From NCBI RefSeq assembly GCF_014204975.1, contig NZ_JACHMM010000001.1, positions 2,418,001 through 2,482,000 on the forward strand: a stretch of DNA of 64,000 nt, in the 5' to 3' direction. Origin of the DNA: Jiangella mangrovi (GTDB lineage Bacteria; Actinomycetota; Actinomycetes; Jiangellales; Jiangellaceae). Positions 21,026-58,479 of the stretch are shown piece by piece. Both the position numbers and the translations under genes were made by a program. Within the stretch, counting starts at the first letter, position 1, and every line of letters begins with the position of its first letter. The notes below the pieces were generated by a model. The model was not told the DNA's origin, made no database searches, and saw nothing but the letters and a program-made list of their open reading frames with translations.

Positions 21026-21116
21026 GGGAGTCTGGCGACGGGTGGGGCGTCCTGGCGGGCTGCGGTCTGGTGTGGTGTCCGCGATGTGGGATTTCGGGGT
21101 GTTTTCTGGGCCGCCC

Positions 21117-21176
21117 ACCACGTTTACCCGAGCCTCATCACGCCTGCAATCATGTTGGGGCTCGGGTAATCGTGGT
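21117..21176. repeat. 60-nt inverted repeat with 18-bp arms
   Basis: The left arm (21117-21134) and right arm (21159-21176) match over 18 bp with one mismatch, core TTACCCGAGCC / GGCTCGGGTAA, around a 24-nt loop. It follows the 133-nt hairpin by 91 bases in the same convergent intergenic region. Confidence 0.7.
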
Positions 21177-21277
21177 GATGTAGCGGATCGTTGATGATCA
21201 TCGCTGTCCACAGCCCGGCAAACGGGGCGAAACGGGGAGCCGACCTCATCCCCCCATCAAACCTCAGACTCCCCGGG

Positions 21278-42942: not shown

Positions 42943-43662
42943 GTGCGGAAGACCATCATCGGTGGGTTCGGGGCGCTGGCACTCACGGTCGCGGGAGCGG
43001 CGCCGGCACTGGCGGACGACCAGGACACTGGGAACGCTGTCGCCTCCTACGGCAGCGACGACGGCGGCCATGACGATGACGGCGGCGACGACGACGGTCA
43101 CGACGACGGCGGCGACTACGGCGACCAGGACGGCGACGACGACGGCGGTCACGACGACGGTGGCGACGACAACGGTGCCGATGAGAACGGTCACGACGAC
43201 GGTGGCGACGACAACGGTGCCGATGAGAACGGTGCCGATGAGAACGGCGCTGACGAGAACGGGGCTGACGAGAACGGCACGGACGACGGCGGCGACGAGA
43301 ACGGCGCTGACGAGAACGGGGCTGACGAGAACGGGGCTGACGAGAACGGCACGGACGACGGTGCCGACGAGAACGGCGCCGACGAGAACGGCGCCGACGA
43401 CGGCGGCGACGACAATGGTGCCGACGAGAACGGCTCGGACGTGGGCGCCGACACCGGCGACGCGAACGGCGACGACGCGGGCGCCGAGAACGGTGGCGAT
43501 GACGACGGCACCGGCACGGACGACGCGGCGAGCGACGAGAACGGTGACGAACTCCCCGACACCGGCTCGGACTCGGCCCTGATCGCTCTGGGCGGCCTGG
43601 CCATGGCCGCCGCCGGCGGCGCGGCGATCGCGGTGCGCCGCCGTCGTTCCGAGACTGCCTGA
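42943..43662 (+). CDS. Acidic GADEN-repeat surface protein with LPDTG sortase signal
   Basis: A 239-residue exported protein. Residues 1-24 are a signal peptide (cleavage after PALA). Residues about 25-200 consist almost only of Asp, Glu, Gly, Asn, Ala and Thr, with tandem five-residue GADEN units alternating with DDGG. It ends with ELPDTG, a membrane helix and RRRRS, a sortase signal. No folded domain is visible. The same type of stalk occurs in the 5'-nucleotidase in this window. It might bind cations or act as a polyanionic wall coat; function unknown. GTG 42943 has GAGG upstream. Confidence 0.8.
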   Translation: MRKTIIGGFGALALTVAGAAPALADDQDTGNAVASYGSDDGGHDDDGGDDDGHDDGGDYGDQDGDDDGGHDDGGDDNGADENGHDDGGDDNGADENGADENGADENGADENGTDDGGDENGADENGADENGADENGTDDGADENGADENGADDGGDDNGADENGSDVGADTGDANGDDAGAENGGDDDGTGTDDAASDENGDELPDTGSDSALIALGGLAMAAAGGAAIAVRRRRSETA

Positions 43663-43676
43663 CCGCTATTCGACCT

Positions 43677-43719
43677 GGCTCTGCGCCCGTCGGTCCCTCC
43701 CGGCCGGCGGCGCAGAGTC
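43677..43719 (+). terminator. Hairpin after the GADEN-repeat gene
   Basis: CTCTGCGCC (43679-43687) and GGCGCAGAG (43709-43717) are perfect 9-bp arms, extendable by a wobble and a G-C pair, with a 21-nt loop that is C/G rich. Confidence 0.6.
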
Positions 43720-43735
43720 ATGTCCAGGCCTGGCC

Positions 43736-44188
43736 TCAGGGTGTCTCCGGCGACCGGAGGTGCTCGATCGAACGTCTCTCGATGAAGTGCGGATACGCCG
43801 GGATGGGCCGGCCATCGATCAGGTCCACGCCGCAGATGGAGACGTCGGGCCGATGCGAAAGAAGGTCCAGGTCGCGGAGGCCGTCGTCGAGGCGGCAGAG
43901 GACCGACGGTTCTCGGGCGCTATCGGTCACCAGAACGTGCTCGTGCCTGCCTACCGCCGTCTCGCGAGCCCACGCCACGACATCTTCGTCACCCACGTCT
44001 GGTGTCAGGCGCAGGTATCGGTGGGGCACTCCGCTCCAGTCGAGTCCAGCACCCATCCACCGCATTGTGCACAGATACGTGTCGAAGGCCGACGAGAACT
44101 CGACCGGCAGGATCGATCCAGCATGCTCGGTGAGCCACCGTGCCAGTTCCGAATCGTCAGTGCGCACCGTCCAAGTGTGCACATGCAT
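43736..44188 (-). CDS. Hypothetical protein
   Basis: A 150-residue soluble protein I do not recognise. It is rich in Asp, Arg, His and Trp, with no signal peptide or membrane helix; segments include WLTEHAGSILPVEFSSAFDT and YLRLTPDVGDEDVVAWARET. Third-position GC is lower than in neighbouring genes, and the ATG lacks a clear ribosome site, so it may be recently acquired. It lies between a convergent LPDTG gene and tRNA-Phe, a position typical of accessory cargo. No function is proposed. Confidence 0.6.
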   Translation of the reverse strand: MHVHTWTVRTDDSELARWLTEHAGSILPVEFSSAFDTYLCTMRWMGAGLDWSGVPHRYLRLTPDVGDEDVVAWARETAVGRHEHVLVTDSAREPSVLCRLDDGLRDLDLLSHRPDVSICGVDLIDGRPIPAYPHFIERRSIEHLRSPETP

Positions 44189-44296
44189 TCGGTGCAGTCG
44201 CGGCCGCGGCCCCAGCGTGCCCCACGGGGCGGATACGACAGGGGAATCACGGTCGTCTGTGGCGACGAATCAGAGATGTTCGCGCTGGTGAAGGGG

Positions 44297-44369
44297 TGGA
44301 CAGGGGCGGGTTCGATCCGCCGACCTTCCGCTTTTCAGGCGGACGCTCTTCCAACTGAGCTACCTGTCC
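44297..44369 (-). tRNA. tRNA-Phe (GAA)
   Basis: The acceptor stem GGACAGG/CCTGTCC, D arm GCTCAGTTGGAAGAGC, anticodon stem TCCGC/GCGGA with loop CTGAAAA (anticodon GAA), variable AGGTC and T stem GGCGG/CCGCC are complete; discriminator is A. The T loop reads ATCGAAC rather than TTCGANC, so position 54 is A instead of T. The 3' CCA is not encoded. Confidence 0.93.
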
Positions 44370-44447
44370 TTGCGTTGGCGGGACGAGTTTAACCGACGCC
44401 GCCGCTGGGGTGAAATCGCGCCCTCCGAGAACGGTCGGTGATCACGA

Positions 44448-44535
44448 CGGTGTGAGATCGCTGCAGCAACCGTGGTAGATCGCTGTTGCCAGAGCGACAG
44501 CAATGCCACCCGGGCGGTGCTGCGATCTCACACCG
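44448..44535. repeat. 88-nt palindromic element with 14-bp perfect terminal repeats
   Basis: CGGTGTGAGATCGC (44448-44461) and its exact complement (44522-44535) bound an interior that also pairs (GCTGT/ACAGC, TTGC/GCAA, GTGG/CCAC). AGATCGCTG occurs twice in the left half. The element lies between tRNA-Phe and the end of the CopD-CtaG gene. It could be a miniature mobile element or a large terminator. Confidence 0.72.
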
Positions 44536-44565
44536 CTGCCGCCGGCACCCGAGCGCAACCCATCC

Positions 44566-46572
44566 TCACTTCTCGCGGCGGGAGCGCTCGTCGAGCTGGG
44601 CGAGGTAGGCGTTGTAGGCGCCACGCTCGGCCTCCTCGGAACCCTCGCGCCGGTCGAAGCGCCGCGCCTCGCGTTCGTCCGAGCGGTACCACTGGACGAA
44701 CAGCACGCCGATGACCAGCAACCCCGGCACCTCGCCGAAGCCCCAGGTGATCTGCCCGGCCAGGATCTGGTCGTCCAGCGGATCGGGCAGCCACGGAATC
44801 TCGACGGCGATCTCGCGGTAGTAGTCGCCGGCGATGAGGCGCGACGACTCCATCAGTGCGAGCCCGAACACGGCGTGGAAGGCCATGGCCAGCAGCAACA
44901 GCACCACGCGGGCCGGGAACGGCGGCCGCTTGGGGAGCGGGTCGATGCCGATGAGCATCTCGAAGAAGATGTAGCCGACCACGAGGAAGTGGACGCTCAT
45001 CAGCATGTGGCCGGTGTGCGAGCGCATCGCCGACTCGAACAGGCCGGTGAAGTAGACCGTGTACGCGCCGGACACGAACAGCGCCAGCGCCACCAGCGGG
45101 TGGGTGAGCACACGGGCGACCGGGCTGTTGACGGCGGAGACGATGAGCTCGCGGGGGCCGAGCTGTCCCCGTCGGGCCGGCTTCAGGGCGCGCAGCGCCA
45201 GCGTGACCGGTCCGCCCAGCACCAGCAGGATCGGGCTGATCATCATCAGCACCATGTGCTGGACCATGTGCACCGACAGCATCACCATGCCGTAGGTCTG
45301 CATCCCCGACAGGCCCACGAACGCGACCGTCGCCAGCCCGGCCATCCAGGCGACCGTGCGGCCGATGGGCCAGCGGTCGCCGCGGCGGTGCAGCCGCCAG
45401 ATGCCGCCGACATACAACAGGAAGCCGGCCAGCACACCGAGCGCGAACAGCGCGTCCGGGTAGGTCTCGGTGAAGATCCGGCCAAAGCCGAACTCGGGCG
45501 GGATCGGGAAGCCGATGAGGGTGCGGACGACGGTGCGCACCTCGGGGATCTCCGGGCCCGGCGGCTCGGTGCGGCTCAGCGCGACGGCGAGGCCCAGGGC
45601 GACCGCCATGATGACGACCTCGCCGACCGCCAGCCGCCGGAACGCGCCGGGCTTGCCCGCCTCGAGCAGCGGCAGTGTCCGGGTCCGATGCTGCCAGCCC
45701 AGCCATCCCAGCCCCACCAGTGCGAGCACCTTCCCGAACAGGATGAGCCCGTACGCCGACGTGAACACCTCGCCCAGGTTGTCCAGCCGCACCCACGCGT
45801 TGAGCACGCCACTCGCCGCCACCATGACAAAGCAGCCGAGGGCGACGGCGGAGAAGGCGGCCGCCACCCGTGGCAGGTCGCGACCGCGCCGCCCCGCGTA
45901 CCACGACAGTGCCACCAGCCCGCCGACCCAGACGGCCATCCCGATCAGGTGCACCAGCAGCGACACCCGCGCCGAGTGGTGGTAGTCGCCCGACGACGAG
46001 TGCCCGATGAGGCTGAGCGGGACCAGCGTCGCCACCCCGAGGCAGAACAGCGCGATCGCCCCGCCCTGCCCGATGGTCAGCCGCGCCGCCGGCACGATCG
46101 CCAGCGCCAGCACCACCATGGCCGCGTACGCCCGGCCCTGCTCGACGGTCGAGGTGTAGGAGACGAACGAGTCGCCCGCCAGCGCGTCCGGCAGAGGCCG
46201 CCCGACCAGGTCGGACAGCGTCAGCAGGTGCACGGCACCGGCGGCCAGGGCCAGGATCAGGGCCGAGATCGACGCCCCGCGCAGCGCGCGCAGCGCGTCG
46301 CCCTGCAGTTCGCCCTTGCGCACCGGCAGCACCACCGCCAGGCCGAGCATGCCGATGGTGACCGCACCGGCCCCGTCGAGCACGACCTTGGCGATCGGCA
46401 GGCCCCACTTCGTGACCTCGCCGGGCTCGCCGAGGCCGGGGATGCCCGCCGTCGCGCCGCCACCGCCGAGGACCATCGCGACGACCAGCGTGACGAGGGC
46501 GACCGCGGCCGCCGCCGCACCCCATTGGCGGGTGGGCGGGACGACGTCGGTGGCCGGTGTGGAAGTGCTCAT
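44566..46572 (-). CDS. CopD-CtaG fusion: copper transport / cytochrome oxidase assembly membrane protein
   Basis: A 668-residue protein with about 15 hydrophobic helices. The N-terminal half (to about residue 330) is CopD-like (SLLVHLIGMAVWVGGLVALS; SGVLNAWVRLDNLGEVFTSA), a copper importer domain. The C-terminal half is caa3-type CtaG (MLSVHMVQHMVLMMISPILL; MLMSVHFLVVGYIFFEMLIG), with histidines suited to copper. Such fusions are common in actinomycetes and supply copper for respiratory oxidase. The start overlaps the CopC stop by one base (TGATG). Confidence 0.92.
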   Translation of the reverse strand: MSTSTPATDVVPPTRQWGAAAAAVALVTLVVAMVLGGGGATAGIPGLGEPGEVTKWGLPIAKVVLDGAGAVTIGMLGLAVVLPVRKGELQGDALRALRGASISALILALAAGAVHLLTLSDLVGRPLPDALAGDSFVSYTSTVEQGRAYAAMVVLALAIVPAARLTIGQGGAIALFCLGVATLVPLSLIGHSSSGDYHHSARVSLLVHLIGMAVWVGGLVALSWYAGRRGRDLPRVAAAFSAVALGCFVMVAASGVLNAWVRLDNLGEVFTSAYGLILFGKVLALVGLGWLGWQHRTRTLPLLEAGKPGAFRRLAVGEVVIMAVALGLAVALSRTEPPGPEIPEVRTVVRTLIGFPIPPEFGFGRIFTETYPDALFALGVLAGFLLYVGGIWRLHRRGDRWPIGRTVAWMAGLATVAFVGLSGMQTYGMVMLSVHMVQHMVLMMISPILLVLGGPVTLALRALKPARRGQLGPRELIVSAVNSPVARVLTHPLVALALFVSGAYTVYFTGLFESAMRSHTGHMLMSVHFLVVGYIFFEMLIGIDPLPKRPPFPARVVLLLLAMAFHAVFGLALMESSRLIAGDYYREIAVEIPWLPDPLDDQILAGQITWGFGEVPGLLVIGVLFVQWYRSDEREARRFDRREGSEEAERGAYNAYLAQLDERSRREK

Positions 46573-58418: not shown

Positions 58419-58479
58419 GTTGATCATGGAGAAGGTCGGCTCTGAACGACGCCGGAACCCGATCTTCTCCATGGTCGAC
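58419..58479. repeat. 61-nt inverted repeat with 20-bp arms
   Basis: The arms at 58419-58438 and 58460-58479 share ATGGAGAAG and flanks, differing at three positions, all transitions that keep G/U pairing in one RNA strand. The loop is 21 nt. Located between convergent genes directly after another hairpin. Compensating wobble changes suggest a structure retained at RNA or hairpin level. Confidence 0.72.

Follow-up and report, generated by a model that had tools for sequence, protein, structure and literature searches.

The 64-kb window (the whole stretch of DNA that was analysed) contains an 88-nt imperfect palindrome with ends that are exact over 14 bp, lying between a tRNA-Phe gene and an ORF that we take to code for a copD/cytochrome c oxidase assembly-like membrane protein (Table 1). 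The element sits on the upstream side of the tRNA, with 78 nt between its start and the tRNA 5′ end; its other end is 30 nt short of where the copD-like ORF terminates. In an Rfam 15 search of 44200-44700, the tRNA alone passed the gathering score, with three weak miRNA matches falling far below it. The same neighbourhood includes a forward-strand ORF (42943-43662) whose product has a signal-like start, a long Asp/Gly/Asn/Glu repeat run (GADENGADENG) and a hydrophobic tail; with what we take to be an LPDTG-type sorting motif, it is presumably a sortase-anchored surface protein.

The earlier note on this DNA had described a palindrome of this length with perfect 14-bp terminal repeats and an internally paired body, and both parts of that description hold. 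The terminal sequence CGGTGTGAGATCGC has just two exact matches in the window, one on each strand, and these are the two arms. Extended inward, the arms (44448-44489 and 44494-44535) measure 42 nt each, are 74% complementary and make up an inverted repeat longer than any other in the 64 kb at a maximum distance of 120. The palindrome has an RNA fold of −61.7 kcal/mol (z −5.7), with none of 200 shuffles as good, and a DNA fold of −33.5 (z −5.1). Further, the arm is repeated directly at 22-nt spacing with 82% identity, which gives the element four related units arranged as a nested palindrome. Within the family to which it belongs, column conservation is highest over a stretch of the inner hairpin (TGTYG ... 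CGACAG). The family alignment places the boundaries slightly outside the exact arms, and the profile match for this copy (G000:C1:2462445-2462537) has an E-value of 3.2e-17. Beyond position 2/93, no steady excess of outward pairing was seen among 36 single copies, the largest value being 15 of 36 against 10.9 at one position.

Table 1. Features of the palindromic element and its immediate neighbours (positions in the window)
Feature	Coordinates	Strand	Basis
Copy of the ~93-nt palindromic element, enclosing 44448-44535 (about 92 nt)	44446..44537		family alignment
Left terminal arm, CGGTGTGAGATCGC	44448..44461	+	exact match
Right terminal arm, exact inverse of the left arm	44522..44535	-	exact match
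Internal unit, first copy, ACGGTGTGAGATCGCTG	44447..44463	+	direct repeat D1, 22-nt spacing, 82% identity
Internal unit, second copy, making the nested palindrome	44469..44485	+	direct repeat D1
Inner hairpin, ATCGCTGTTGCCAGAGCGACAGCAAT	44479..44504		RNA and DNA folds; column conservation
tRNA-Phe (GAA), neighbour outside the element	44295..44369	-	ARAGORN; Rfam tRNA
copD-like membrane-protein ORF, neighbour	44566..46572	-	ORF call

Copies of the element in Jiangella and its relatives

A BLASTN search of the own genome (G000), where the window occupies C1:2418001-2482000, with the window copy returned 19 matches at 17 distinct places. We also used a profile, R1, built from 25 copies from the own and related genomes, which carries an RNAalifold structure of only four pairs and hence behaves as a sequence profile. 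R1 recovered 129 strand-hits in G000 (120 in the genus-wide comparison at E ≤ 0.001), about twice the number of places, since the reverse complement of the element is almost identical to the element itself. We read 64 distinct copies in the 7.16-Mb one-contig genome (E < 1e-3; one weaker match dropped). The further copies that the earlier note proposed to look for are therefore present in abundance. The element is short (~93 nt) and encodes no protein; 56 of the 64 copies are exactly 93 nt by the profile, with a mean pairwise identity of 59% among these, and of 89% within a subfamily of eight.

At E ≤ 0.001, all 12 Jiangella genomes were positive for R1, in very uneven numbers: 34 strand-hits in G008, 26 in G004, 11 in G005, eight each in G001 and G002, seven in G006, four in G007, and the remainder as contrasted below. 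At E ≤ 1e-4, matches were found in 14 of the 22 genomes of the order. These comprise 11 of the 12 Jiangella genomes (G011 drops out) and three from two other genera of the same family, namely G017 (31 strand-hits), G018 (10) and G021 (1). BLASTN with the window copy matched eight of 60 genomes, all of them Jiangella, the own genome included. A wider scan of genome contigs returned 32 stretches, five of them from Jiangella; the other 27, single exact 17-mers in scattered genera, look like chance matches.

In a tree built on 1.45 kb at copD, G000 falls with G011, and G009 with G003 and G010, the latter two being 96% identical to G009 over this stretch. Thus, both high-copy genomes have low-copy sisters: G009 has 142 strand-hits versus 16 in G003 and two in G010, and G000 has 120 versus four in G011, where the two largest counts may be low, as only 150 candidates were scored per genome. 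Within G009, 17 copies of the X type have a mean identity of 89% and are probably, judging by this similarity, a recent amplification. The family has multiplied separately in several related species.

Copies also lie close together more often than expected. The own genome has 12 neighbouring pairs less than 300 nt apart, against a null mean of 1.5 and a maximum of seven; six are on opposite strands and the remainder on the same strand, and two belong to a tandem array, L088. This array (2440-2930 of L088; G000:C1:3092039-3092530) consists of three ~200-nt units, each with a 93-nt palindrome, and a second palindrome, CATGATCATCCAGGATGG, is repeated in the segments between the 93-nt units. In G009, an opposite-strand doublet was found in nine of 20 stretches that were selected for holding copies. 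Such doublets join a palindrome of the X type to one of the Y type through a conserved linker, and the repeated sequence often runs well past the doublet. The G009 copies L126, L127 and L139 have unique DNA on either side, up to the 93-nt unit. One pair in G000 (575661/576758, 1.1 kb apart) was considered as an autonomous element and discarded: it encloses a host-type ORF, presumably for a DUF559-like endonuclease, and no transposase.

Other palindromes are also present in these genomes. At 21095-21195, the window has a member of a second family (CACCACG.TTACCCGAGCCTC ... GGGGCTCGGGTAATCGTGGTG) with about 40 places in the own genome, the longer matches being 78–96% identical; 20 of the copies have in common a more extended stretch with TTGATGATCATCGC in it. 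This family is younger than the ~93-nt family. At 58419-58479, an inverted repeat (TTGATCATGGAGAAGGTC / GATCTTCTCCATGGTCGAC) lies behind a GC-rich stem. Similar palindromes of the TTGATC(A/T)TGGAG type flank several ~93-nt copies in the own genome and occupy the 3454281 site, discussed below, in G006 and G007.

Occupied and empty sites, and placement relative to genes

The gap between tRNA-Phe and copD was readable in all 12 Jiangella genomes, with the ~40 nt adjoining the tRNA largely preserved throughout. The ~93-nt family is present in two of them (G000 and G008). Four others (G001, G006, G011 and G002) have other inverted repeats, as recognized by eye, and the remaining six (G003, G004, G005, G007, G009 and G010) are without any repeat and have a gap of just 67–81 nt. 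The two carriers are not sisters and the immediate flanks of their copies differ, which makes two separate insertions likelier than a single old one. In G008 (L113), the family copy is followed by a second, different inverted repeat (CCTCACCCGCCGG ... GGCGGGTGAGG), and a similar repeat is the sole one in the G011 gap. As these differ from the ~93-nt family, one and the same gap hosts several palindrome families in different species.

Eight further sites were compared, of which six were readable; at L126 and L145 in G009, no empty site could be read. An empty counterpart exists in G003 for the G009 copy at C10:140071, in G010 for the copy at 5968281, in both G011 and G010 for the copy at 2551521, and in both G011 and G008 for the copy at 3454281, with a different palindrome at the last site in G006 and G007. 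None of the six genomes read showed the copy at 4796342. The copy at 2551521 starts within a gene, provides its stop codon and replaces the last residues found in G011. At two sites (G009:C10:140071 versus G003 and 5968281 versus G010), the lengths differ by more than the element, so that loss or flank turnover in the relatives may apply there. One of the seven sites examined, 576758 (L139 in G009), has the family, partly degenerate, in G009, G000, G003, G010, G004 and G001. It is absent there from G008 and G011, and G006 has another repeat (G005 is ambiguous, and G007 and G002 are unreadable). Its sharing by six genomes implies that some copies are old or that the place has been hit repeatedly. 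Given a multicopy, protein-less element whose presence varies by lineage, with empty sites in relatives, a single conserved terminator of one copy at a fixed position is ruled out.

We then classified the placement of the copies with a home-made gene caller, which scored 88.9% of the window as coding, missed at least one host ORF and is blind to tRNAs, so that the window copy was scored as convergent by its protein neighbours. By these calls, 38 of the 64 copies are in convergent gaps, 21 in tandem gaps and four in divergent gaps, with one genic. The 50 occupied gaps comprise 27 convergent, 19 tandem and four divergent ones, as against 14%, 49% and 37% by length in a control of 178 gaps of at least 40 nt; none of 20,000 draws was as extreme for either the convergent excess or the divergent deficit. 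In tandem gaps, 17 of the 21 copies are nearer the 3′ end, and the median distance from a copy to the nearest gene 3′ end is 38 nt. Thus, the copies lie preferentially near the 3′ ends of genes and are scarce in divergent (promoter) gaps, a placement that would result both from selection against harmful insertions and from a mobiliser that prefers such places. This general bias makes the tRNA neighbourhood one case of a wider rule. The earlier suggestion of a tRNA-adjacent insertion zone is not borne out: the nearness of the tRNA is incidental and no rule of the family, and the hairpin beside tRNA-Phe is no tRNA-specific signal.

Nature of the element and its possible mobilisation

Taken together, the roughly sixty copies, the uneven and lineage-specific numbers, the empty or differently filled sites, the 3′-end placement and the excess of doublets make it probable that 44446-44537 represents a dispersed palindromic element of ~93 nt that is non-autonomous. 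Non-autonomous dispersed palindromic repeats are a known kind, to which we assign the family as a new one; it is REPIN-like in its working, and membership among the REPs failed.

It could instead be a classical MITE, i.e., a DDE transposon with an internal deletion, its terminal inverted repeats being recognized by a related transposase encoded at another place in the genome. With its terminal inverted repeats, short non-coding body, copy number and lineage-specific insertion it has the general look of one, and to this extent the original designation of a miniature inverted-repeat element stands. One more specific mark is lacking. A target duplication was sought around 36 single copies with boundaries shifted by −6 to +7 nt and lengths of 2–9 nt (~1,570 combinations), and none stands out. 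The largest excesses were eight versus 3.1 expected (2 nt), five versus 1.0 (3 nt) and four versus 1.3 (4 nt, within the arm), with none of 5 nt or more among the top-listed combinations; a possible imperfect 5-nt duplication (GCGGG/GCCGG) was noticed by eye at 2551521. Among the 67 matches listed for a 16-nt arm pattern in the own genome (≤2 mismatches), only three lie outside known copies and no arm pair was seen to enclose a transposase gene. No recurrent neighbour gene family was found beside the copies, as each of the six protein groups common to at least three loci also has a member elsewhere in the window. The Y1 HUH transposase (PF01797) is absent from all 12 Jiangella genomes, with the positive control detected in five of 14 genomes; a RAYT-driven REP was rejected on the same grounds, PF01797 being missing from the own genome and the genus. 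The entire body, beyond the mere ends, is palindromic and conserved. We consider a classical MITE unlikely, and the strict “MITE” label, like that of a “tRNA insertion zone”, is not supported.

A functional 3′-end element under selection, such as a bidirectional terminator or mRNA stabiliser whose apparent mobility is intergenic turnover, would agree with the strong preference for convergent gaps and for the 3′ ends of genes, and with the very stable hairpin. Yet no intrinsic terminator of the U-tract type (a GC hairpin followed by a T-run) was found in 43600-44800, and the tRNA-Phe site is empty in six of the 12 genomes. The element at G009:C10:140071 is preceded by a distinct GC stem with a T-run, and this stem is kept in G003, which is without the element. 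Pairing over 48 distinct copies is 69.1%, barely exceeding the shuffles (mean 66.3%, maximum 67.9%), and RNAalifold retained four pairs. This indicates conservation of the sequence and not of the pairing, with structure-specific selection weak at best, and selection on RNA structure was accordingly rejected. Such a role as the origin of the family appears improbable. Conservation of sequence over pairing, along with the internal direct repeat at 22-nt spacing, would also suit multiplied sites for a DNA-binding protein, with four copies of GTGTGANATCRCTG per element as a nested palindrome. This we regard as highly improbable, given that copies range from about one to about 70 between sister species and that close relatives lack the element at some places, as an essential family of sites would not.

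The dispersed palindromic element that we favour resembles the REP/BIME/REPIN repeats, as these are described in the portions covered of PMC3116915 and PMC3733652, in consisting of dispersed, non-autonomous extragenic palindromes of lineage-variable copy number with over-represented inverted doublets. It differs from REPs in its length (93 nt versus 20–40) and in an own-genome consensus without GTAG or CGTC, and from the RAYT (TnpA_REP) systems in that all 12 Jiangella genomes are without the Y1 transposase; of these enzymes, the part of PMC6006769 covered reports only IS200 subclass 1.1 from the Actinobacteridae. With MITEs and Correia elements, as outlined in part of PMC10969869, it shares a short, non-coding, multicopy and intergenic form with inverted-repeat ends, but it is without a target-site duplication and no parent insertion sequence was found. 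From the CGTC-tagged REPs, ERIC, BOX and RUP it differs in sequence and architecture. To our knowledge, the mobiliser of ERIC, BOX and RUP is either unknown or foreign. All three are named in the same part of PMC10969869, and the CGTC-tagged REPs have no associated transposase gene in Table 1 of PMC3733652, within the portion covered. We found no description of the ~93-nt family in the literature on Jiangella, palindromic repeats and actinobacterial MITEs, mostly outside subscription papers, and nothing on such repeats in the part of PMC5292007 covered.

We propose that a single-stranded hairpin of the element may be copied or excised and then integrated in trans, through a recombinase for which no candidate was found among the types tested or which has since been lost. 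This would amount to a dependence like that of REPINs on RAYTs, minus the RAYT. Insertions would persist where harm is least, just beyond stop codons, and the window copy would have ended up in the space separating copD from the conserved region upstream of tRNA-Phe. In transcripts, the hairpin may act as a brake on RNA polymerase or as a protection of the mRNA 3′ end; a mild effect of the element on 3′ ends is thus possible.

Tentatively, and as something of an outside chance, a REPIN-like population of large nested hairpins would persist in the Jiangellaceae without a Y1 transposase, dispersed by an enzyme class not yet tied to short palindromic repeats. On this reading, the machinery may be shared with the other palindrome families of these genomes, those found at the same intergenic places in sister species. 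The short palindromic repeats of proteobacteria are tied to RAYT enzymes, and the Jiangella family provides a RAYT-less contrast to them. With about sixty copies in one species versus a couple in its sister, it offers a tractable case for what moves RAYT-less palindromes.
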